42,967 nucleotides of DNA from an uncultured Chloroflexota bacterium (GTDB lineage Bacteria; Chloroflexota; Dehalococcoidia; GIF9; AB-539-J10), in contig CAISEW010000055.1 of NCBI GenBank assembly GCA_903884455.1, positions 1-42,967 on the forward strand, given 5' to 3'. Each line of letters begins with the position of its first letter. The first letter of the stretch is position 1. Under the pieces are notes generated by a model. That model was not told the DNA's origin, made no database searches, and was given only the letters and a program-made list of their open reading frames with translations. Position numbers and translations under genes: made by a program. Below, one piece after another: positions 19,763-35,092 of the stretch.

Positions 19763-20749
19763 ATGAAAATCCTGGGTATTGAAACCTCTTGTGATGAAAC
19801 TGCCGCTGCCGTGGTGGAGGACGGCAGCAGAATTATCTCCAATATTGTCGCTTCACAGATAGACATTCATGCTCGCTATGGCGGCGTAGTGCCCGAAGTT
19901 GCCGCAAGGCAGCATCTCCTCACTATTATCCCGGTTATCAGCCAGACAATGACTGAAGTCTCCTGGCAGGATATCAACGGCATTGCCGTGACCTTTGGCC
20001 CGGGGCTGGCCGGGTCGCTGTTGGTCGGCGTCAACGTGGCTAAGGCAATTGCCTTAGCCAAAAAATTACCTCTTATCGGGGTTAATCATCTTGAGGCACA
20101 TATCTATGCTAATTGGCTGGACTCCTCTCCACCTGGGGAAAAGGATAGAGTGAAATTCCCTTGCCTCTGTCTTGTTGTCTCCGGTGGACATAGTGATTTA
20201 GTATTGATGAAGGGGCACGGGCAATTTGAGAAGTTAGGGCGGACCCGTGATGACGCTGCCGGCGAAGCCTTTGACAAAGCAGCTAGAATCCTGGGCCTGG
20301 GCTACCCTGGGGGTCCGGCTATTGAGCAGGCCAGCCGCTCTGGAACCCCTTGCTTGCCTCTCCCCCGGGCCTGGCTCAAGGAAAGCCATGATTTCAGCTT
20401 CAGTGGCCTAAAAACGGCCTTGTGGCATCTTGTTCACAAGGGAGAAATCTCAGTGGCTGATGCCGCAGCCAGTTTCCAGTTGGCTGTAGTCGATGTGTTA
20501 GTTATCAAAACAATTGAGGCTGCCAGGCAATTGAAGGTGGAGCAAATTTTGCTGAGCGGTGGAGTGGCAGCCAATAAGATGTTAACCCAGCATTTCCTTG
20601 CCAACTCGCCAGTGTCGGTTCTTATTCCCCCTCCCCACTTATGTACTGACAATGCTGCTATGGTGGCTGCCTGTGGCTATTATCATTTACAAGCCGGCAA
20701 GATAAGCGGTTATGACCTGGATGTAGTGCCCAGTCTCAGTCTTGGCTAA
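19763..20749 (+). CDS. tsaD: tRNA N6-threonylcarbamoyladenosine transferase TsaD
   Basis: A 328-residue TsaD (Kae1/YgjD), the conserved enzyme that transfers threonylcarbamoyl to A37 of ANN-decoding tRNAs. It begins [10 protein letters not shown], carries the metal ligands His109 and His113 in NHLEAHIYA, has SGGHSDL and the [18 protein letters not shown] segment, and ends with [11 protein letters not shown] and DNAAM. Length and motifs are typical. A short GCAGG site lies just before the ATG. Upstream are only repeats, so it is probably its own transcription unit. Confidence 0.96.
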
Positions 20750-22850: not shown

Positions 22851-23007
22851 GCTTACGCCTCAGTATTCCTTAACTAGCTAGAGGACACTGTGAACATCTT
22901 CCCTCTCGGCCTACCTTCCGGGCGATGGCAGTTGTATATCGTATCTCTTGACTTGCACAAAATGGCGATTTGTTACCTTTAGCCAGCTTCTCCAAAATGG
23001 TTATGTA

Positions 23008-23036
23008 TTGTTCACTCTCGTATATGGATGTATAAT
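23008..23036 (+). promoter_or_regulatory. Promoter of the PLD-helicase/methylase row
   Basis: TTGTTC (23008-23013), a 17-bp spacer and a perfect TATAAT (23031-23036). RNA would start near 23043, leaving a 46-nt leader before the helicase ATG. Confidence 0.6.
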
Positions 23037-23088
23037 TCCCATAACCAGAAAGATTTCCTAATGGATAGGTAAATAGCGAGACTATCTA

Positions 23089-26000
23089 ATGAGTAAATCT
23101 AAGAGAAGTAAGAAGAATCAACTTGGCTTAGGGGATGAGCTATATGGGACCAGACTTGGAGAGTTCCGTGATCGTTCGCCAAAGAAATCTGGTACTGACC
23201 TATTTATCATAGATAACAGTGATGAAGACTGGAAAGTAAGAGATTATCTCCATGATTGGTGCCAGCTTTCTCAATCGATTGATATAGCAACAGGGTTTTT
23301 CGAAATTGGCTCTTTGCTTGCTTTAGACGGTGAATGGCAAAAAGTTGATAGATTCCGGATATTAATGGGTGATGAGGTTTCTTTACGTACAAAGAAAGTC
23401 TTTGATCAAGGACTAGAAAATATCACTCGCAGATTGGATAGTAGCATAGAGATTGAAAAGGAAAATAATGACTTTTTAGTAGGTGTACCGGCGATAGTAG
23501 AAGCAATTAAAGCTAAAAAGATTGAATGTAAAGTCTATCGAGAGAACAAGTTTCACGCAAAAGCCTATATTACTAGAGCTCGTCAAGAAGTAATCGGCTC
23601 TTTCGGTCTGGTAGGCTCATCTAATTTCACCCTGCCTGGTTTGTCAAAAAACGTCGAACTGAATGTTCAAATTACTGGCAGGCAAGTTGGCGCTCTACAA
23701 GAATGGTATGAAGAATACTGGAAGCATGCTGAAGATGTGTCCCCTGAGATACTCCGTGTTATCGAAAGACATACACGTGAATATCAGCCCTTTGAAATAT
23801 ATGTTAAAGCGCTTCAAGAGTTTTTCCGCGGTCACGAAATTACCGAATCTGAATGGGAACTGACCGAATCGAAAATGCTTCCCGTACTTGACCAGTACCA
23901 AAAGGAAGGCTACTGGTCTATGGTGAAAATTGCAAGGCAATACGGCGGAGCTTTCATGTGTGATGGAGTCGGTCTTGGTAAAACCTTTATCGGGTTAATG
24001 CTTATCGAACGATTGATTATGCATGAGAGGAAACGAGTTGTCTTATTCGTCCCGAAAGCTATCCGGAAAGATGTTTGGGAAAGGGATATTCGTCGATACC
24101 TTCCCGATTTATGGGGAGATTTCAGTAATTTGGCAATTTTTAATCACACTGATCTGAGTAGAGAAGGTGAATTTCCTCGAAGATTCGAAAAAATAACAGA
24201 AATGGCTGATGCTATCGTCATTGATGAAGCACATCATTTTCGGAATCCAGGAATCAAAGGCACTGGCGAAAAAAAGCCTTCCCGCTACTGGAAGCTGTTT
24301 GACCTCATCGGTGGTTCTCATGGCACCAAACAGGTCTATATGTTGACAGCCACTCCGATTAATAACCAGCTTGACGATCTCCGACATATGATTGAGTTAT
24401 TTTCACGACAAAGAGAGGATTACTTTAAATCCACGCTGGGTATCCATTCCTTGAAGGGACGCTTTATCATGATGGAGCGTGAACTTAAGAAAAAAACAGA
24501 AACGAAGCAAACGGACGATGAACCGATGAGCACAGATACTAGTGAAGCTGAGAAGGTTCTCAGTTCTGATAATTTATTTAATGCCCTGGTTGTGCAGAGG
24601 AGTAGGGCCTATGTTAAGCAGAGCCAAATACAAGAAGGCGGCAGGATTACCAGTTTCCCAGAGCGAAAGCCCCCGCAAGTTGCACAATATTCAGTAAGAA
24701 AAACCTACGGCAAACTGCTCGATGATGTCGACAAGGCTTTTAAGAAAGAAAAGGCTCTTTTCGTCCTCGGCATTTATTACCCTCTCTATTACTACAAAGG
24801 ACCTGACACCACAATTGATCCCATGCTCCATGGTCGACAGAGACAGGTCGTTAGTCTGATACGGACCCAGTTTCTCAAGCGCTTCGAAAGCTCAGCAAGT
24901 GCTTTTGAAAGTTCCTGTGATAGGTTGTTTATTAAGCTATTAGCCTGGGCAACGAAGCATAGTGAAACCGAAAGCGAGCGCCGGAGACTGGAACGCTGGA
25001 AAGAAATGCATTCAGACCTGGTTCACTATGTGCACTCGCGCCAGCTTGAACTATGGGGTAGTGATAAGGAAATCGAAGAACTGGAGGAAGACGTTATTAC
25101 CGATGAGATGTTAGAAGATATCGAGTATCTTTCCCGTGATAAGTACAAAGTTGAAGAAATACTGAATGATACAATCCTTGACCTCGACCAGATAGCTTTC
25201 TTTCTTGAGGAACTGCATAAATTTAAACCGGCAAATGATGACAAGCTGCAAGCCCTAATTAAATTATTAACGACAGACCCAGTGCTGAAAACAAACAAGG
25301 TCATTATTTTCTCTGAATTCGCTGATACGGCACGTTATCTGAGAAAGCAATTGCAAGCAGCCGGTATCGAAGGAGTTGAGCAAATTGACAGCGGTACAAA
25401 GGGAGACAGGAGCGCAATAATCAGGCGCTTCGCTCCATATTACAACGATTCATCAAGTTCTCAGTTGAAAACGAATGGCAGTAAAGAGATAAGGATTATT
25501 ATATCCACAGATATTCTTTCGGAGGGTCTCAATCTCCAGGATGCAACTCGGCTGATTAACTATGATCTACACTGGAACCCTGTTCGACTTATGCAACGCA
25601 TTGGCCGTCTTGACCGCAGATTGAATCCAGAGAATGAAGCCCGGATTATTGCAGACCATCCGGAACAAAAAGAACTGCGTGGCAATATGTCTTACTGGAA
25701 TTTCCTGCCTCCGGAAGATCTGGATGTACTTCTCCACCTATACCAGCTTGTCTCCCATAAAACTCTGCGTATTTCCAAGACCTTCGGTATAGAAGGCAAG
25801 AAACTCCTGACAGAAAAAGATGATTACGCAGCTCTTAAGAATTTCAATGAAACCTATGAAGGTAAAACGACCCTGATTGAAGACATGCATCTGGAATACC
25901 AGCGGATTCTAAAAGAACACCCCGAGCTTGCTGATAGGCTTAAAATGTTGCCAGGGCGTGTCTTCACGGGTAAAGAGCATCCCTCAAAGAAAACTCAGGC

Positions 26001-26322
26001 AGTCTTTTTCTGCTATCGGATACCGAGACCCGACTATTCTCTTGCCAGTGACGATGACGAGCATCCCTGGACCGAAGAAGCCGGCGAAACCAAGTGGTAT
26101 CTCTACGACCTGGCTACTGAAGCGATATATGAAGACCCCGCGGAAATCGTCGATATTATCCGTTCCACTCCGGAAACGCAGCGAGTATGCCGGATTGAAA
26201 AACAAACCCTGACCGATATCAGAAAACAAGTAGAAAAGCACATTAAGAACACATATCTTAAACGAGTGCAAGCCCCGGTAGGCATTCAACCTAAACTGAA
26301 AGCCTGGATGGAATTAGCATAG
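23089..26322 (+). CDS. PLD-like nuclease/SNF2-family helicase fusion
   Basis: 1077 residues. The N-terminal ~215 residues form a phospholipase-D-like nuclease domain: FHAKAYI (His155/Lys157) followed by GSSNFTLPG. A SNF2/RapA-like helicase follows: Walker A GVGLGKTF (~293), Walker B IDEAHHF (~377), TATPINNQLDDL (~420), and the C-terminal lobe with IIFSEFADTARYL (~738), STDILSEGLNLQ (~806) and QRIGRLDR (~835). Between the lobes lies a long charged, helical insertion. Such fusions occur in restriction and defence loci, where the helicase translocates on DNA and the PLD domain may cut. The methylase starts 11 bp downstream. The ribosome site before the ATG is weak. Helicase assignment is firm; the defence role is inferred from context. 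Confidence 0.85.
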   Translation: MSKSKRSKKNQLGLGDELYGTRLGEFRDRSPKKSGTDLFIIDNSDEDWKVRDYLHDWCQLSQSIDIATGFFEIGSLLALDGEWQKVDRFRILMGDEVSLRTKKVFDQGLENITRRLDSSIEIEKENNDFLVGVPAIVEAIKAKKIECKVYRENKFHAKAYITRARQEVIGSFGLVGSSNFTLPGLSKNVELNVQITGRQVGALQEWYEEYWKHAEDVSPEILRVIERHTREYQPFEIYVKALQEFFRGHEITESEWELTESKMLPVLDQYQKEGYWSMVKIARQYGGAFMCDGVGLGKTFIGLMLIERLIMHERKRVVLFVPKAIRKDVWERDIRRYLPDLWGDFSNLAIFNHTDLSREGEFPRRFEKITEMADAIVIDEAHHFRNPGIKGTGEKKPSRYWKLFDLIGGSHGTKQVYMLTATPINNQLDDLRHMIELFSRQREDYFKSTLGIHSLKGRFIMMERELKKKTETKQTDDEPMSTDTSEAEKVLSSDNLFNALVVQRSRAYVKQSQIQEGGRITSFPERKPPQVAQYSVRKTYGKLLDDVDKAFKKEKALFVLGIYYPLYYYKGPDTTIDPMLHGRQRQVVSLIRTQFLKRFESSASAFESSCDRLFIKLLAWATKHSETESERRRLERWKEMHSDLVHYVHSRQLELWGSDKEIEELEEDVITDEMLEDIEYLSRDKYKVEEILNDTILDLDQIAFFLEELHKFKPANDDKLQALIKLLTTDPVLKTNKVIIFSEFADTARYLRKQLQAAGIEGVEQIDSGTKGDRSAIIRRFAPYYNDSSSSQLKTNGSKEIRIIISTDILSEGLNLQDATRLINYDLHWNPVRLMQRIGRLDRRLNPENEARIIADHPEQKELRGNMSYWNFLPPEDLDVLLHLYQLVSHKTLRISKTFGIEGKKLLTEKDDYAALKNFNETYEGKTTLIEDMHLEYQRILKEHPELADRLKMLPGRVFTGKEHPSKKTQAVFFCYRIPRPDYSLASDDDEHPWTEEAGETKWYLYDLATEAIYEDPAEIVDIIRSTPETQRVCRIEKQTLTDIRKQVEKHIKNTYLKRVQAPVGIQPKLKAWMELA

Positions 26323-26332
26323 AGGTAATGGC

Positions 26333-29300
26333 ATGATAGAGCAGCAAAGAGTCTATCGTATCAAAGACTTGGATTCTTTGTTAGGTTTCCTGCGAGAAGA
26401 TTTGTGCTGGGATTTACCGGAAGCTAGTATTGATGATGTTTCCTTCGAATGGACCGGACTGGATCTGAACCTATCAGAAGATGTCAATGAAAAGCTTAAG
26501 GATGGGTTGATACGTCAGTTACAGCCTTTTGCCACTGATCAACCCTGGGGAATCTTCGTCGTTGAGTTCGTCACCCGTGAAGTCTCAATCATAACCTTGC
26601 GGCAAATACTCCGGTGCTTTGTAGCCAAAAGGCGCAGTGCCCGGCCTGATCTCCCTGCCTGGCAATGCGAGAACCTTTTGTTCATCTGCGTCTATGGCGA
26701 GAACGGTTTCACCTTTGCCCATTTCAAGGGAGATAACCCCTATTCCTCGAAGTTGACCACATTCAGCTGGCATCCTGGGGAGCCTATCCGGACGGTCTGC
26801 GAATTTAACTTGCCAGCGCTTGTCTACGATTACACCTGGACACCTGAGACCTGGGTTGAAGAATGGCAGAAAGCCTTCGATGTCGAAAAGGTCAATAAAG
26901 ATTTCTACCGGCAAATCGCCCGGTTCTTCTATCGCCTTACTGGCAAAGAGGGACACCCGCGGGAACTCGTGCTGCCATACGTCGGGGATGATTTGGGTAG
27001 CATCAATATCTACGAAGAGTTTGCGATACGGCTCATCGGCCGGTCTATCTTCTGCTGGTTCCTTAAGCACAAGGTGTCCGAAGAATCCAATGTGCCACTG
27101 ATTCCTCCGGAAGCGCTATCGCTGGCTGCCGCCCGAGAGACGGAAGACTTCTATCACTCTATGCTGGAACCTCTTTTCTTCGAAGTGATGAACAAGCCGT
27201 TCAAAGACAGAAAATCCCTTCTGGTTCCCCGGTCGGAGATAATTCCGTTCCTCAATGGCGGCCTCTTTGAACCCCACTCCAACGACTTCTATCCAGGCGT
27301 CGCGAATTACGGGTTGAAGATATCATCTGCATGGTTCATCGACTTCTTCAGCCTCCTCGAGAGGTACAACTTCACCATCACGGAGAACAGTAGCATCGAT
27401 GTTGATGTGGCGGTTGACCCGGAAATGCTCGGCAGAATATTCGAAAACCTGCTGGCCGAGTTGGTGCCGGAGACTGGAGAGACTGCACGAAAGGCTACTG
27501 GGAGCTATTACACCCCGCGTGCCATCGTGAATTATATGGTGCAGGAATCGCTAAAGCAGTATTTGCTCACCAACACCACTCTCGCCGAGGAAAAGGTCAG
27601 CCGGCTACTCGGTTACGGCGGGGATGTCGAGGACTTTTCCACAGAGGAAAAATTGGCGACGGTAACTGCCCTGAGGGACATAAAGGTTATCGATCCGGCC
27701 TGTGGCTCGGGTGCTTTCCCCATGGGCGTACTGCACCGTATGCTGGCGATGCTGGAAAAGGTAGATCCGAGGCTTGAGTTATGGAGAGCGCAGTATTTGA
27801 AATCGCTCGATGGTATCGTGCGACAGACCGTGGAGAAAAACATCAGCCGTGAAAACTGGGCTTATATTCGCAAGCTGATGATAATCAGGGACTCTATTTA
27901 CGGAGTGGATATCCAGCCGGTTGCCGTGGAGATTGCCAAGCTGCGGTGCTTCCTGTCTCTGGTTGTGGATGAAATCATTATTGACTATGAGGAAAATCGC
28001 GGCGTTGAGCCACTGCCTAACCTAGAGTTCAAATTCGTGGCCGCGAACACGCTTGTGGGCTTGCCCTCCGGCGTAAGCCAGAGCGCCTTTGGGGTTACGG
28101 CTACAGTGAATAAGCTCAAAGGATTAAGAGAAGATTACCTACGTAGTTTTGGGGCAGAGAAGTCGCAGATTGAAGAAGAATTCCGGGCCACCCAACAAAA
28201 ACTGTTCGCGGAAAACGTACAGTGGGCAGTTGCGGATACACTTGTGAAACGGCTAACCGAATGGGATCCGTTCTCCTACGAATCCTGTAGCTGGTTTGAC
28301 CCGGAGTGGATGTTTGGTGTGAAAGGTGGGTTTGACACAGTGATTGGAAACCCGCCCTACCTCGAAGCTAGGCACCCGACCTTCTCGGAACAGCGAAAGC
28401 AAGAGTGCCGGACCGGAATCAATCAACGGTGGGGATCATTGGCATCAGGCATAACGCGCGGGTCAGACTTACTGGTGTACTTCATTGAAACGAGCGTGCA
28501 TATGCTTGCGGAGAAAGGCACCGGTGTCCTACTAACCCAGAACGCATGGCTGGATACTCTGTACGGCAAAGCCCTGCAGGAATTCCTGATGAAGACCACA
28601 AATGTGATTGCGATAGTTGATAGCGACTTCAAGTATTTTGACAGCAAGGTAGGGCCCAATATAAATACAATCATTTGTGTTTTCCATGGTAGATCTCCAC
28701 AGCCATCCCGTACTCTTAAATTCTTACGCTTCCACGAAAGTTTCGACGCATTACCAGTTAGCCACGACTTTGAGATTCTTAAGGGCTTAGGAAAAGTTGA
28801 TTATTCCCAGTATAGGTATTCTGACAGCCTTCTTCACGATGCTAAATGGGGGATACTATCAGGCATAGAAGATTGCCTTCTGCAGGTGTTAAAGGTTCTT
28901 CAACGGAATGGGAGCCAAATAGAGCGTATTCCGCGGCGAACCATTACGATCGGGCAGGGACTGAATCTTTCCTCCGCTCATATAGTGCATGCTGAAACTG
29001 CTAGTGATTATCCATACTTGGAATCTGCCCTGATTCCTTTCATGACCGAGGGCGCGCCGTATGTACTAGACCATGTCGGCAGTTTTCTGGTTGATGGATC
29101 CAAATTGAACACGCGAGAAAAGGCCGCACTTAGAGCTGCCGGAATTCTCCCGTTTGACGTAAAGTCAACAACAAAAGAACGCCCAGCACTCATCATGCCC
29201 CGTGGTGTGAGCCGTCACTTCTGTGCATTAAATCAAGTACACGCATTCTCCTCTAGCTTTGTTGATATTTATGACATTAATAGAGAAGAATTACTGAATT

Positions 29301-29653
29301 CAGATGTAATCCTAAACTTGTGGTTGATATTGAATTCGTCCCTAGCATGGCTCCTTCGGGAGGCCGGTGGTCGTAAGAACTTGGGCGGTGGCCTGTTGAA
29401 AGCTGAAGCTGCAGATCTAAAGCAATTTCCCATCTATTTTGACGTTGGCAACCTCAGGGCTATCCAAGCGATTTGCGATAGGGTTGCGGGCAGAGAGGTA
29501 TTGGAGACACCAGAAGAACTGGACACACCAGAGCATAATGCCATCGATGACTTGGTATTTCGGAAGCTGAATATCACTGAAAAGCTAAGGCACGAAATTG
29601 TTGACTGTTTGAAGAGAAGGATATCGGTACGCTCTTCAAAATCGACCACTTGA
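26333..29653 (+). CDS. Eco57I/COG1002-like adenine-N6 DNA methylase
   Basis: 1106 residues. SAM-binding motif I is VIDPACGSGAFPMG (~452-465), catalytic motif IV is VIGNPPYLEA (~670-679), and a pre-motif segment TGSYYTPRAIVNYMV precedes them. These are the hallmarks of gamma-class adenine methylases in type IIG, type I-like, BREX and DISARM systems. The C-terminal third resembles a target-recognition domain (GLNLSSAHI, then KNLGGGLLKAEAADLKQFP). The first ~350 residues are not recognised; I saw no clear PD-(D/E)XK motif, so nuclease activity may lie in the PLD domain upstream. A GAGGT site precedes the ATG. It starts 10 bp after the helicase stop and the next gene follows 10 bp after its own. 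Confidence 0.85.
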   Translation: MIEQQRVYRIKDLDSLLGFLREDLCWDLPEASIDDVSFEWTGLDLNLSEDVNEKLKDGLIRQLQPFATDQPWGIFVVEFVTREVSIITLRQILRCFVAKRRSARPDLPAWQCENLLFICVYGENGFTFAHFKGDNPYSSKLTTFSWHPGEPIRTVCEFNLPALVYDYTWTPETWVEEWQKAFDVEKVNKDFYRQIARFFYRLTGKEGHPRELVLPYVGDDLGSINIYEEFAIRLIGRSIFCWFLKHKVSEESNVPLIPPEALSLAAARETEDFYHSMLEPLFFEVMNKPFKDRKSLLVPRSEIIPFLNGGLFEPHSNDFYPGVANYGLKISSAWFIDFFSLLERYNFTITENSSIDVDVAVDPEMLGRIFENLLAELVPETGETARKATGSYYTPRAIVNYMVQESLKQYLLTNTTLAEEKVSRLLGYGGDVEDFSTEEKLATVTALRDIKVIDPACGSGAFPMGVLHRMLAMLEKVDPRLELWRAQYLKSLDGIVRQTVEKNISRENWAYIRKLMIIRDSIYGVDIQPVAVEIAKLRCFLSLVVDEIIIDYEENRGVEPLPNLEFKFVAANTLVGLPSGVSQSAFGVTATVNKLKGLREDYLRSFGAEKSQIEEEFRATQQKLFAENVQWAVADTLVKRLTEWDPFSYESCSWFDPEWMFGVKGGFDTVIGNPPYLEARHPTFSEQRKQECRTGINQRWGSLASGITRGSDLLVYFIETSVHMLAEKGTGVLLTQNAWLDTLYGKALQEFLMKTTNVIAIVDSDFKYFDSKVGPNINTIICVFHGRSPQPSRTLKFLRFHESFDALPVSHDFEILKGLGKVDYSQYRYSDSLLHDAKWGILSGIEDCLLQVLKVLQRNGSQIERIPRRTITIGQGLNLSSAHIVHAETASDYPYLESALIPFMTEGAPYVLDHVGSFLVDGSKLNTREKAALRAAGILPFDVKSTTKERPALIMPRGVSRHFCALNQVHAFSSSFVDIYDINREELLNSDVILNLWLILNSSLAWLLREAGGRKNLGGGLLKAEAADLKQFPIYFDVGNLRAIQAICDRVAGREVLETPEELDTPEHNAIDDLVFRKLNITEKLRHEIVDCLKRRISVRSSKSTT

Positions 29654-29663
29654 TGATGGAGAC

Positions 29664-30275
29664 ATGCCTATGGAAATCGAATATACCATTTGTCAAATTC
29701 AGTCCGGCGAGATTTCACTAGCGGCCAAGACTCATAGACGACTGGATGGCGACCCACGTTTAGAGGTAAGGCTCACTCGAGGTCGGGTTACTTGGAGACT
29801 GCTTAATCTCGTGGACGGCACGCCAGAGACTTTGGTAGGAATGCCACGCCGAAACCATGTTGACTTCTATTTTCTTTATGAGAATCTGAAGAGCTTACTT
29901 GCGGGGTTTCCTCGTCCAACTGTGCCAGCAAATCCTGATTTGCGACTATCCGCCGTTAGTTCAGCCGGCACGGAGCGTCAGGGAGGTAAGCGAGTACGCA
30001 TTGTTGTGCCGGTACATCGCTACCCCTTGCTCTCGGTAGAACTGCATGTGGTACAAGCTCCATCCTTTTCTGCTACAGGAATCGAACCATATATGCACAT
30101 GGATGTCGAAAGCACCCCGACTGGCTTGTACGGTGGAGAAACCTTTGAGATCCATTTTGGCATTCAGGCTAACTTTGAGATAACAGGACCATTTTCGGGT
30201 AGTATGAGTAGTGCACTCATCCAGATGCAGCCGGACGTATATGCTACCGTACATAGTGACATGAGGTATCTATAG
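29664..30275 (+). CDS. Unrecognised protein in methylase/helicase row (203 aa)
   Basis: I do not recognise a family. The 203-residue product appears largely beta-stranded, with alternating hydrophobic stretches such as RVRIVVPVHRYPLLSVELHV and FEIHFGIQANFEITGP, and no cysteine cluster, membrane segment or nucleotide motif. A GGAGA site lies just before the ATG. It begins 10 bp after the methylase stop, so it is almost certainly cotranscribed and a candidate component of the same system. An in-frame ATG six bases downstream is an alternative start. Confidence 0.65.
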   Translation: MPMEIEYTICQIQSGEISLAAKTHRRLDGDPRLEVRLTRGRVTWRLLNLVDGTPETLVGMPRRNHVDFYFLYENLKSLLAGFPRPTVPANPDLRLSAVSSAGTERQGGKRVRIVVPVHRYPLLSVELHVVQAPSFSATGIEPYMHMDVESTPTGLYGGETFEIHFGIQANFEITGPFSGSMSSALIQMQPDVYATVHSDMRYL

Positions 30276-30399
30276 ATACTGCCAGGGCATTTGGAACCAT
30301 CCTTCAGTTTGAAATAATCCTTATGAGGGAATCCCAACAGACGCCGTGCTAACTAATCCGCTAGAAATCGCGTAATATAGTTTTTGGAGGTTCTCACAA

Positions 30400-31110
30400 A
30401 TGAATATCAAGGACGTCACGCTGAGTAAGATAGCGATGGCCGGGTTCTTGTTCAACTCTCTCACCCCTTATAACACTTCGCTCGTGAATTTCAGATCTGC
30501 TATCGGCGATCGATTGGACCTCTCCATTCAAGAGCATCGCGCCGCCCTGATGAACTGGTTGAACGACTGGGGGTGTAGACACCTTTCGAAAGGTCAACAC
30601 CAAGTTGCGTCTAAAAATATTTCGGAGTGGTATAAACAGGATTGCGCTACTTTGTTTAGCGATAAGACCCCTCTTTGGCAACTTAAAGATCAAGAAACTG
30701 AGGCTGCTGCTAATGCTTACGGTTCCCTTAAGGACAGGATAGGGGCACGGCGGTCTCGCTATGGCAATGAATCAGAGGTCCATATTGGCCCAACCGCAGC
30801 CTCCAAAATCCTCTTCGCCATCAGGCCGAAGGCGTTGATGCCCTGGGATGAGGCAATGCGGGAAAGCTTCAAATGTGATGGTAGTCCTAAATCGTATTTC
30901 AAGTACCTGAAGATAATCAGAGATCTTACTTTACACATCGGCGACCTATGCAGGAATAAAGGGTTCCAAATTGACGACCTTCCCCAAAAACTGGGGCGAC
31001 CAAATTCCACAGTGCTGGCACTTGTCAACGAGTATATCTGGATCACCGAGACAAGGAAGATTGAACTGCCTTCATCGGAAACACTCACGCAATGGGCATC
31101 GCTCGGTTAA
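30400..31110 (+). CDS. Unrecognised protein at end of methylase/helicase row (236 aa)
   Basis: The 236-residue product is basic and helical in appearance. A central motif IGPTAASKILFAIRPKALMP is followed by WDEAMRESF, loosely reminiscent of helix-hairpin-helix segments in DNA-repair-like proteins; that resemblance is weak and not a family call. A strong TTGGAGG site (ending 30390) precedes the ATG by nine bases. It is separated from the 203-residue gene by 124 bp containing a TAATAT box, so it may have its own promoter. The stop codon is two bases before a hairpin-forming repeat. Confidence 0.65.
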   Translation: MNIKDVTLSKIAMAGFLFNSLTPYNTSLVNFRSAIGDRLDLSIQEHRAALMNWLNDWGCRHLSKGQHQVASKNISEWYKQDCATLFSDKTPLWQLKDQETEAAANAYGSLKDRIGARRSRYGNESEVHIGPTAASKILFAIRPKALMPWDEAMRESFKCDGSPKSYFKYLKIIRDLTLHIGDLCRNKGFQIDDLPQKLGRPNSTVLALVNEYIWITETRKIELPSSETLTQWASLG

Positions 31111-31112
31111 CA

Positions 31113-31173
31113 CCGCGAATTCCAGGGACATCATACTAATCAGGCCTGCTACAAATCAGGCATTATGCCGCGG
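31113..31173. repeat. CGCGAATTCC hairpin repeat, copy 1
   Basis: It begins CCGCGAATTCC and ends CCGCGG, with an inner hairpin GCCTG (31144-31148), loop CTACAAAT, CAGGC (31157-31161). It is about 85% identical over ~53 bp to the copy at 32143. The outer arms CCGCG (31113-31117) and CGCGG (31169-31173) also pair. It sits two bases after the 236-residue gene. Confidence 0.7.
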
Positions 31174-31907: not shown

Positions 31908-32350
31908 AGGGCAAACCGACGAAACGAATCGTGTGTACTTTAACAATTGAATCCGCCGGAGGTAATCGTCTTACGTATGAAAAAGAGCTGTTGAACTCCC
32001 GAAAAAACAGCCATTTTTGCAGAACGAATCATCCCGGCCTCCCCCATGTTCTGCCCCCTATGAGCCAAATGACAACATTCTTCGCATATATGCTCGGAAT
32101 GACAGGAATGGCCGGGGATCTGGCAATGACACGCCGCTAGGACGCGAATTCCGGGGACACCATACCAATCAGACCTGCTACAAATCAGGTATTATGTCCC
32201 CAGAATACCACAAGGACGTAGCTCCCAAATGTGCGTTGCACTTTCCTTACGATTGCGCAAGGCAGAGAAAGGCCTTAGTTAGAGGAAAATGTGTATTCTG
32301 GGTCATTTAAGTAGCAACTGATGCCCATTTGAAGGTTCAAGAACGGAAAT
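31908..32350. other. Gene-free stretch with repeat remnants
   Basis: No credible gene is seen. At ~32090-32130 the words GCTCGGAATGACA and GGCAATGACA resemble the TCATTGCGAG repeat family. The second hairpin repeat lies at 32143-32206. The open frames here run through the repeats. Confidence 0.45.
32143..32206. repeat. CGCGAATTCC hairpin repeat, copy 2
   Basis: This copy keeps long pairing. ATTC (32148-32151) pairs with GAAT (32203-32206), GGGGAC (32153-32158) with GTCCCC (32196-32201), and ACCTG (32173-32177) with CAGGT (32186-32190) around the loop CTACAAAT. The inner stem differs from copy 1 by a paired change (G-C to A-T), so pairing is preserved. Confidence 0.7.
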
Positions 32351-32605: not shown

Positions 32606-33040
32606 TCAGGCCTGGCTCCTGGCTGTGGCGTCTGCTTTTTCTATGAACTTCTCTGCTGAAGCGATAACCGCTTTAGCTCCGGACTGAGAAAATTCAGCCT
32701 CGTAATCGGCAGCTTGACGGAGGTTCATGGCATTGAGTAAGTCCCGAACTAACTGAGCGTCCATTTTACCTTCGTCTACGAATAGCGCCCTCAAGGCTAC
32801 AGCCAGGCAGTAGTGGCTCTTCTCACGGTAACCCTGGGAGTAGACAAGCGCTCTGGCAGCATGAAACATCGCATAATAGCCTTGAATAGTTGACCACTTG
32901 TATCGCTCATTTTCATAACCTGCTTTTGCATCTGCCAGGTCACTTCTGGCGACTGAGAGCTCCTTCTTAACCAGTTTTTTGCCTCTGGCGAAGGAAACAA
33001 TCTTCTTGCTTTCGAGACACTGTTTAAACTCTTGATTCAC
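32606..33040 (-). CDS. HEPN domain protein (toxin-like partner)
   Basis: A 144-residue HEPN-fold protein. The signature is YYAMFHAARALVYSQGY followed by REKSHYCLAVAL, as in HEPN proteins paired with minimal nucleotidyltransferases. Such proteins act as RNases or RNA-binding toxins neutralised by the partner. A clear R-x4-6-H catalytic motif is not obvious (only REKSH), so catalysis is uncertain. Its start overlaps the end of the nucleotidyltransferase gene by 17 bp, so the two are coupled. Confidence 0.8.
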   Translation of the reverse strand: MNQEFKQCLESKKIVSFARGKKLVKKELSVARSDLADAKAGYENERYKWSTIQGYYAMFHAARALVYSQGYREKSHYCLAVALRALFVDEGKMDAQLVRDLLNAMNLRQAADYEAEFSQSGAKAVIASAEKFIEKADATARSQA

Positions 33041-33590
33041 TTCTAGCCCTTTCCCATAATACTATGCCACGCTCAACTTCTTCCATGAAAGTCTGCTCTG
33101 ACTCCCCTCCCTCCAATAGCTCGACAGGCGTTCTAATCACTGACTGAATATTAATATTCTCAAATCCCCTGGGGAATGCGAAATTACTGACAACATTTGA
33201 CACGTCCTTTTTGTTGTTAGATACGACGAATAAATCTAAATCACTCTCCGAATTATCTGTCCCAAGAGCACAACTACCGTACAATATTATGCGGCTTGAC
33301 ATCTTCTTCAGTTCTTCTACTAGCGGTTCAATCAGCATGAGATTTACCATTTTCTTGAACTCTGTAAGGGCGACAGTCGAAGAATCAATAGAATAGAAAT
33401 ACATTTTCCCCTCTCGTCGGCGCTTAATTGCACCGGCAGAATATAAGTCTTTGACGGCACGGTGTGCCGAGCCATAACCTATGCTAAGCTTGCGGGCGAT
33501 TTCTCTTTCATAGAATTCCCTATCCGCGAACTTGGCAAGAAAGCTAAGGACTCTTTGGTTAACCGTAACAATAATATGTGTGCTCAACAT
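33024..33590 (-). CDS. Winged-HTH minimal nucleotidyltransferase (MNT, antitoxin-like)
   Basis: 188 residues. Residues 1-75 are a winged helix (EREIARKLSIGYGSAHRAVK) and ~98-188 are a Pol-beta-like nucleotidyltransferase with the motif YGSCALGTDNSESDLDL (Gly105-Ser106, Asp117, Asp119). MNT partners of HEPN proteins can add nucleotides to the toxin. The attached DNA-binding domain suggests that this one also represses its own promoter, where a palindrome covers the start site. It is followed by the overlapping HEPN gene. The role is inferred from the pair. Confidence 0.82.
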   Translation of the reverse strand: MLSTHIIVTVNQRVLSFLAKFADREFYEREIARKLSIGYGSAHRAVKDLYSAGAIKRRREGKMYFYSIDSSTVALTEFKKMVNLMLIEPLVEELKKMSSRIILYGSCALGTDNSESDLDLFVVSNNKKDVSNVVSNFAFPRGFENINIQSVIRTPVELLEGGESEQTFMEEVERGIVLWERARSESRV

Positions 33591-33652: not shown

Positions 33653-33772
33653 GAGCTAGTACACGATTATAGCAATGGCCTAACTATTGCATTCTGGCGG
33701 TTTGTTCAGCCCGGAAGCGCTTGCTGTGTGCTGATAACATCTATCGTAGTTCCGAAGTTATCGTGAGAATAC

Positions 33773-35092
33773 TCAACCAGCCAGAGGACACTGTGAGCAT
33801 CTGCCCTCACGACAGTAGTTCCTGAAGACATGAATGAGCCCTTGCTGATGACAGGCAGTGAAATCAAAGGGTTCTTCGAAGCCAAGTTGCTTCGCCATAT
33901 GCCGTGTTATGCAATTCTCAGCCAATCTGGGATAATTACGGTAAAGCTCTATAGCGTTCTCTGTCAGCTTCGTCTCATCAGCTAATTTCCCCCAGAAAAA
34001 GGCAAAGGGCAATATCACGTTTACTGCAATTTCACCTGCTTTGCTATTTCCCAAAAGAGCCGATATCTTTGTTTTACTTCTGACATCAAAATCGAAATGG
34101 TCCCGCCAGTAGCCATCGCCAGCCACGGTTAAACCGTTCTCCAATGCATGGTGCCCCTTGGGCAGAGGTGCTTCCTTCACTAGCTGCAATATCCCTGCTA
34201 ACAGTTTTCCTTGGCAGTAACGCTCAAGAAGGTAGCTCTGGGCGACAATGCGTCGCACTGGAGAATTGTTGGGGTATATGTGTGAGAAGTTCCAGTCACT
34301 TTCTCTCATAGTTTTAACTTTTTTACCCGCCGACTGCCACATTTGCTCCAATTCCCGGACTTCTTTTTCCATGACAAACTTTCCTTGCCGTCTTTGAGAA
34401 GGTAATAACCCGGCTGTGCCTAACAACAAAGCTTGCTTTAGAGCCAACCCCTCTCTGGATTCGATGGAATTGAGGGGCATTCTGTCAGCAAGGTCTTCAA
34501 AGGGCTTTGTGTTTTTAGCATAACCCAGAGCCCTCATCATGCCCCGGAAAAGCACCTGCCCTGCCTCCTCTTTCTGAGCGAAGCGAAGAATCTCGGCTTG
34601 AAAATGCCTCGCCTTCAGCTTAAACCTTTCTTCACCGGCAGTGTTCAGTAGCTTTTCTAAAGTTTGCCTATCCACGTGGTCCAGCATCTGGAAGCAAGGA
34701 AGCCGGCAAGGCAACAAATAGGCTTGGTGCCGCAATGCCTTCGCCAGACATAGCACGGGAACCGGCTTGCCGCTTTGTAGTAAGGTAGCTGAATTACAAT
34801 CATGCCACATCACGACATGAAGGATGACATTATTATATTCAGCATCAGCATGATGCTCATGGCTATACCAATCGCTGGATTTAACGTGAACCTCTACATC
34901 CCCTTTCGTCAAATGAGATTTATTTACAATAACCGCATCCCGAAAATCGGGGCCGTTATCACCATTAGTCCTTCCCGGATAGATTACACTGACCGGCTCG
35001 TCTTCCGTGGAGGTCAGCTCCTTTCTCAGCACCTGTTGCCATATGAGGGCTGCCTGCTTTTCCGAGAATTTTATCCGATTACGTGTAATCAT
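33773..35092 (-). CDS. DUF2851 family protein
   Basis: A 439-residue protein matching DUF2851 by its N-terminal block YPGRTNGDNGPDFRDAVI and KGDVEVHVKSSDWYSH. The spacing of the aspartate in GPDF and the E-V-H-V-K segment resembles a PD-(D/E)XK nuclease core, which is my inference. The C-terminus has a cysteine pattern (CREGRCSQCPLAG). It starts 16 bp after the XRE gene on the same strand, so they form an operon. The GATTAC-GT-GTAATC inverted repeat (35077-35090) lies across its first codons. Confidence 0.75.
   Translation of the reverse strand: MITRNRIKFSEKQAALIWQQVLRKELTSTEDEPVSVIYPGRTNGDNGPDFRDAVIVNKSHLTKGDVEVHVKSSDWYSHEHHADAEYNNVILHVVMWHDCNSATLLQSGKPVPVLCLAKALRHQAYLLPCRLPCFQMLDHVDRQTLEKLLNTAGEERFKLKARHFQAEILRFAQKEEAGQVLFRGMMRALGYAKNTKPFEDLADRMPLNSIESREGLALKQALLLGTAGLLPSQRRQGKFVMEKEVRELEQMWQSAGKKVKTMRESDWNFSHIYPNNSPVRRIVAQSYLLERYCQGKLLAGILQLVKEAPLPKGHHALENGLTVAGDGYWRDHFDFDVRSKTKISALLGNSKAGEIAVNVILPFAFFWGKLADETKLTENAIELYRNYPRLAENCITRHMAKQLGFEEPFDFTACHQQGLIHVFRNYCREGRCSQCPLAG

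Follow-up and report, generated by a model that had tools for sequence, protein, structure and literature searches.

The closest systems in the literature are the DUF499-centered, Hma-like Type-2 BREX-related systems, in which an HKD nuclease stands N-terminal to a Swi2/Snf2 motor and is joined by an N6-adenine methylase (PMC12839542). These systems also possess a DUF499 ATPase, DUF3780, and a methylase with DUF1156. An HKD nuclease fused to a superfamily 2 (SF2) helicase, sometimes with a methylase, is found in the CxC-ABC/PbeABCD systems (PMC10853773), and SauUSI and CglI/NgoAVII combine a PLD nuclease with an SF2 ATPase (PMC7913695). SauUSI is a PLD-motor fusion able to translocate and cut and reads 5-methylcytosine via an SRA domain (PMC7913695), whereas in CglI/NgoAVII the PLD subunit bears a B3 recognition domain. 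The Type ISP enzymes LlaGI and LlaBIII, in which motor, nuclease, and methylase cooperate, are single polypeptides with an Mrr-type nuclease.

Here, we analyzed a 42,967-nucleotide stretch (the window) that is an entire contig, CAISEW010000055.1, of an uncultured Chloroflexota genome (G000; 1.56 Mb, 63 contigs) and whose nearest named relatives are Dehalococcoidia metagenome-assembled genomes. It carries genes A to D (Table 1), originally predicted to be a four-gene restriction-like operon. A+B forms the conserved unit and comprises a PLD(HKD)-SNF2 nuclease-motor and an N6-adenine methylase. A and B probably constitute a two-gene split ATP-dependent restriction-modification system, in which B would be the methylase and specificity subunit and A the translocating nuclease. 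The restriction-like reading is supported for a motor and methylase pair within an accessory island and fails for the four genes as one system.

Table 1. Features of the window and their positions
Feature	Positions	Strand	Basis or remark
40-nt copy of the DUF2851 gene 3' end; probably the left end of an insertion of 10.9 kb	22869-22908	-	34/40 match to 33772-33811
Region ahead of A, containing the promoter-like site	22963-23088	+	Begins at the left boundary of the G013 block
Block of 4.6 kb with 91% identity to a G013 contig (another genus)	22963-27540	+	4,578 bp
Gene A, 1077 amino acids, PLD/HKD nuclease fused to SNF2-type motor	23089-26322	+	Open reading frame (ORF), Pfam, invariant residues
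BN, N-terminal domain of B (~180-190 amino acids), common to both classes of methylase; proposed to contact A	26333-26902	+	
Gene B, 1106 amino acids, class I (Eco57I/Type IIG-like) N6-adenine methylase	26333-29653	+	ORF, Pfam, motifs
Gene C, 203 amino acids, orphan, outside the conserved core	29664-30275	+	Accessory slot
Gene D, 236 amino acids, separate passenger	30400-31110	+	Relatives apart from A+B
Dispersed hairpin repeat copy, 4 bp past the D stop codon	31114-31167	+	
HEPN (32606-33040) and MNT (33024-33590) pair, within the same insertion	32606-33590	-	ORFs, Pfam

A conserved nuclease-motor and methylase pair

The ORFs and Pfam domains confirmed a PLD-nuclease/SNF2-motor fusion gene followed, 10 bp on, by an Eco57I-like adenine methylase gene. 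Gene A matches PLD in its N-terminal part (PF13091, 1.8e-7), SNF2-rel (1.3e-9), and Helicase_C (1.1e-17), and gene B matches Eco57I (PF07669, 2.9e-25) and N6_Mtase (1.7e-8), with motif I (DPACGSGAF) at residue 454 and NPPY at residues 673 to 676. The catalytic residues of A comprise H156, K158, N179, and E190 of the PLD domain and K298, DEAH (379-382), and R837/R840 of the motor; of these, H156, K158, N179, E190, K298, D379, E380, H382, R837, and R840 are invariant in 31/31 A sequences, 12 distant ones included. The PLD histidine had been numbered 155 in the original prediction, one short of its position counted from the ATG.

Matches to A at an E value of ≤1e-3 occur in 26 of the 84 genomes of the order, where the only near relatives outside its own genome are in G013 (95%) and G054 (76%). 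One genome per species was scanned, giving 33 loci, among which L055 and L056 duplicate the G013 and G054 contigs. In 21/33, A is 1000 amino acids or longer; no more than 0.75 kb of sequence follows it in L059 and L071, leaving 19 countable loci with at least 1.3 kb downstream, and the 12 other loci (fragments, contig ends, and decayed or distant copies) were excluded from the linkage count. B was present in 18 of the 19 countable loci and was the next gene after A in 17, at -143 to +50 bp; in L060 it lies one gene further on. Among the excluded loci, L075 has an A that is split and a B located farther downstream. Including the window, 19 A+B pairs span nine phyla. The identity of A among 17 pairs is 53 to 76%, except for the window and G013 (95%).

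The neighbors of the pair change from locus to locus. In G013, A and B are followed by a RecF/SMC-type ATPase and in G054, A and a different methylase are followed by an Mrr_N-domain protein; neither genome has C or D. Genes encoding RecF/SMC-like ATPase, Mrr_N, OLD-like TOPRIM, NYN, HD phosphohydrolase, PRiA4_ORF3, and Schlafen-AlbA/Fic-like proteins were found downstream of the pair or between A and B. Conserved linkage, the criterion set in the original prediction for all four genes, was found for A+B alone, and a four-gene A-D system was rejected, with C confined to its own genome and D separate from A+B.

One motor, two classes of methylase

Past residue ~190, the B proteins divide into two classes with little in common other than methylase motifs, an Eco57I/Type IIG-like class I (the window, L055, L060, L063, L064, L083, and L085) and a Type ISP-like class II (the 12 others). 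In BLAST comparisons of this region among 17 pairs, bit scores were 26 to 45 across classes and at least 125 within class I and 638 within class II; L060 and L066 were assigned by separate BLAST. Eco57I was found in the class I proteins of the window, L063, and L083, and the Type ISP specificity domain (PF18135, Type_ISP_C) was found in 5/5 class II proteins scanned. The class II B of L057 aligns to residues 898 to 1522 of LlaBIII and 734 to 1194 of LlaGI, the methylase-recognition half. A strict motif I pattern is present in 10/19 B proteins and NPPY or NPPW in 18/19, the exception being the 388-amino-acid fragment of L066.

On a maximum-likelihood tree of the 19 A proteins, the methylase class changes five times, and four of these changes are forced by supported branches. 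As few changes were obtained in 142 to 149 of 500 label shuffles; therefore, the methylase class is nearly free of A ancestry. One motor has very likely been re-equipped repeatedly with quite different methylases.

The DNA block shared with G013 is 87 to 97% identical per 250 bp, and identity outside it is 43 to 65%. Its left edge lies 126 bp upstream of A and includes the promoter-like site, and its right edge falls within B near codon 400, ahead of motif I. The window and G013 have the motor, BN, and the region after BN in common and differ in the methylase core and recognition part, so that this block edge is, on sequence grounds, an exchange of the methylase/recognition part visible in DNA.

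Comparison with described systems

The pair may resemble DISARM class 1, as the SNF2 motor of A matches DrmD (4.2e-39; 134.6 bits, below the model cutoff of 610) and B matches the N6-methylase DrmMI; for B, the DrmMI match in PADLOC (1.1e-23) compares with 1.6e-72 for Type IIG. It differs in lacking DrmA and DrmB and in carrying PLD on the motor instead of as a separate DrmC, both of which had been predicted and were substantiated by PADLOC and Pfam. PADLOC gave no DrmB match in eight window proteins and a DrmA match only via the motor of A; the sole MZB/DUF1998 match of the source genome lies on contig C41, not on that of the window (C55). DISARM membership was rejected because the core genes are absent, and the locus, for which a minimal or separate system had been suggested, is best treated as separate from DISARM.

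The HKD-SNF2 fusion with an N6-methylase is shared with the Type-2 BREX-related systems (PMC12839542). DUF499 gave no match in G000, G013, or G054 or in 11 more of the 20 pair-carrying genomes; the six others have DUF499 matches at the genome level, not placed against the A+B loci. DUF1156 and DUF3780 were not matched in A to D, and DUF3780 had no Pfam match among nine window proteins, the search being confined to the window. Membership in the DUF499 BREX-related systems was likewise rejected, the core genes being absent. With the CxC-ABC/Pbe systems the pair shares the HKD nuclease fused to a helicase-type motor (PbeA matches A weakly in PADLOC, 6.1e-14), and it differs in that the scanned window proteins gave no match to a CxC-type ABC ATPase or DndE. 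That the pair represents a DISARM, DUF499 BREX-related, or CxC-ABC/Pbe system in reduced or incomplete form, with the other subunits lost or dispensable, is improbable: the DrmD match, the PLD-type relatives, and the presence of this very pair of activities in the Type-2 BREX-related systems would suit such an origin, and the genomes without DUF499, the placement of MZB/DUF1998 on another contig, and the stability of the pair over nine phyla while its neighbors change argue against it.

The best PADLOC model for A, C3a139 (1.6e-57, residues 64 to 854), bears the description "HKD+Snf2", a phrase that a search of open-licence literature returned in no paper. SauUSI has the same order of PLD nuclease and then motor (PMC7913695), and A alone could accordingly be a modification-dependent Type IV nuclease with B as a merely co-inherited methylase. 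We regard this as very improbable, since SauUSI relies on an SRA reader, for which A has no Pfam match at an E value of ≤1, and since tight A-B pairing over nine phyla would be unexpected for a solo enzyme. CglI/NgoAVII differ from A+B in the placement of recognition, which in A+B would reside within the methylase.

Class II B proteins share the methylase and specificity domain of Type ISP enzymes. In contrast to those single polypeptides, A+B consists of two proteins, has a PLD nuclease, and contains an extra N-terminal domain; the window B is itself not of the ISP type, as PF18135 is absent. It matches Type IIG models of PADLOC over residues 180 to 792 and appears to differ from Type IIG enzymes in having BN in place of the N-terminal nuclease region and a separate motor-nuclease adjoining it. 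Distant relatives of A (26% identity) also stand beside a methylase in HKD-SNF2 loci with DUF4391 and Type III Mod/Res genes, in which, unlike in the A+B pair, A is followed by a DUF4391 gene, a methylase, and a DEAD/DEAH helicase gene. In Shewanella and Methanomethylovorans plasmids (L089 and L090), DUF4391, site-specific DNA-methyltransferase, and DEAD/DEAH helicase genes come after PLD-SNF2, and the gene order is similar in a phage record (L092), where it is annotated as Type III methylation and res subunits. No description of a DUF499-free pair or of methylase exchange was found in the open-licence literature searched, as represented by excerpts (including PMC12839542, PMC3710099, PMC10853773, PMC12458937, PMC7913695, and PMC2292703) and by search entries (PMC4666363 and PMC5737866).

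BN and a proposed mechanism

The exception to the divergence of the two B classes is BN, with a mean identity of 31.9% over 84 cross-class pairs (A averages 61.3%). BN had no credible Pfam match in 19 members and no credible PDB sequence match, and neither search revealed a nuclease family. Its predicted model is good (predicted local distance difference test [pLDDT], 85.8) and of alpha/beta type; Foldseek returned no match at an E value of ≤0.001, and the best Z value in a VIA structure comparison was 4.5. In that comparison, restriction-endonuclease-like chains (Hjc 1gef and 9y1l) and tRNA-splicing endonuclease chains scored Z values of 3.0 to 3.4, no more than a lead. A BN probe of 400 Chloroflexota genomes gave three matches, the window and two outside the profile, both with A (47 to 54%) directly upstream. 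Among 294 Planctomycetota genomes there were six matches, one in the profile and five new: three with A upstream, one in a locus ending at the B start, and one weak and partial. A was directly upstream in 5/6 testable held-out BN loci.

We propose that B would bind its target sequence via its variable C-terminal part and methylate adenine at N6, marking host DNA. At unmarked foreign DNA, B would recruit or activate A through BN, the SNF2 ATPase of A would translocate on the DNA, and the PLD nuclease, probably as a dimer, would cut; A would serve as a general motor-nuclease to which new methylase/recognition modules are fitted in turn. Because of these proposed roles in recognition, methylation, and recruitment or activation of A, we consider B the putative modification and specificity subunit. 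From the sequences we infer A-B complex formation, BN as the contact, translocation, cleavage of unmethylated DNA, and phage defense, and an antivirus role in many bacterial phyla is suggested. If this is correct, A+B would be an ATP-dependent restriction system built from just two proteins, and its naturally occurring series of specificity swaps would make it possible to test, by swapping one domain, how recognition is coupled to cleavage.

Several observations weigh against this proposal. L058 has a long A and no B in 1.36 kb of downstream sequence, and the weak partial BN match (1.8e-9) in the Planctomycetota genome G573 has no A in the 1.5 kb upstream. The evidence that BN would tie B to A is one of association. 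BN might also be a cryptic nuclease, which would enable B to cut alone; this is conceivable because acidic residues are conserved at position 35 (19/19 rows) and position 39 (18/19) and because E80-x-K82 occurs in 11/12 class II rows. B would then be an ordinary Type IIG enzyme with BN as its nuclease, and A an auxiliary motor-nuclease acting on already cut or otherwise marked DNA. In keeping with such an enzyme, the best PADLOC models of the window B and of the L057 B (6.6e-213) are Type IIG, and restriction-endonuclease-like chains scored nonsignificant Z values of 3.1 to 3.3 against the BN model. We nevertheless judge it unlikely that B cuts by itself, given that no nuclease family was found in BN, that the window BN is devoid of E-x-K, and that BN accompanies A in two methylase classes, which is not required of a stand-alone enzyme.

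In the split system that we favor, BN could be a portable adapter, such that a methylase/recognition module acquiring it becomes a specificity subunit of the shared PLD-SNF2 motor-nuclease, and two or more types of methylase, including Type IIG-like and Type ISP-like ones, would have been equipped in this way; we put this forward tentatively, as a possibility that falls a little short of being the expected one. Because BN would join at least two methylase types to one motor-nuclease, some enzymes labeled stand-alone Type IIG would then each make up one half of a split ATP-dependent system, their nuclease partner having been overlooked.

Genes C and D

Genes C and D look like local passengers in a variable accessory slot. 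As originally noted, both are unrecognized, with no match in Pfam, NCBIfam, or PADLOC. The gene call is weakest for C, which starts 10 bp after B (coding log-odds per codon, 0.011, versus 0.076 for D), although GGAG closely precedes its ATG. No relative of C was found outside its own genome in the 400 Chloroflexota genomes or in plasmids or viral contigs, and in 104 loci only the window's own records matched. For D, the 400 Chloroflexota genomes contained its own copy and one in G038 (70%), and further relatives were found in G003 (78%) and one Streptomyces plasmid (28%), with none in viral contigs or in the near A+B loci. DNA similarity around D starts 14 to 18 bp ahead of the ATG and stops with the gene or with the repeat after it; therefore, D appears to travel on its own. 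The AlphaFold model of D, based on three sequences, is poor (pLDDT, 55). The stretch GPTAASK...MPWDEA is conserved in the Streptomyces relative, for which the best Pfam E value was 0.089.

Promoter, insertion site, and repeats

The promoter predicted ahead of A was located in the DNA as TTGTTC (23008-23013), a 17-nt spacer, and TATAAT (23031-23036), with a perfect -10 and a weak -35, and is retained in the G013 copy. The consensus scan did not list it because of the weak -35; promoter and terminator counts of that scan were within 1 standard deviation of shuffles.

The island is flanked by TsaD (19763-20749) and DUF2851 (33773-35092), which converge on one contig in 25 of 52 family genomes at spacings of 1 to 75 bp in 10, 135 to 510 bp in 5, and 1.4 to 13.0 kb in 10 (13.0 in the window). 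The 40-nt copy of the DUF2851 3' end, which still encodes the end of the protein in frame, compares with a best match of 30 for 60 random 40-mers. This duplicated end would place A to D and the HEPN/MNT pair inside the insertion, and the insertion point beside TsaD looks like a recurrent site. Extra DUF2851 3' ends lie 1.2 to 4.8 kb from the main copy in G013, G003, and G021 (L118-L120).

The repeat-rich setting beside a HEPN/MNT pair was also verified, with both repeat pairs and both genes present. A 54-nt repeat pair lies at 31114/32143, the second hairpin repeat copy of the window spanning 32143-32212. Copies of this ~70-bp repeat number 24 in G000, 21 in G038, and 9 in G013 and occur also in L111-L117, L040, and L031, in directly oriented series with gene-sized spacing. 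Of 46 copies, 23 begin within 60 bp past a same-strand ORF of at least 60 amino acids (no null was computed), and one strand has a better predicted fold than shuffled sequences (z, -4.1). The series resembles an integron cassette array; an integron reading was rejected, as no TIGR02249 (integron integrase) match was above the cutoff, and no canonical attC core was seen by eye.

In distant Dehalococcoidia relatives, an MNT gene precedes A in 9/20 loci. There (L035, L037, and L043-L049) MNT separates the methylase gene from the PLD-SNF2 gene; a small HEPN-cluster gene usually accompanies it, and the gene ends often overlap. These loci may represent a restriction operon that incorporates an MNT-HEPN pair. 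The MNT and HEPN-cluster genes of L044 match the PADLOC candidates PDC-M05A and PDC-M05B.

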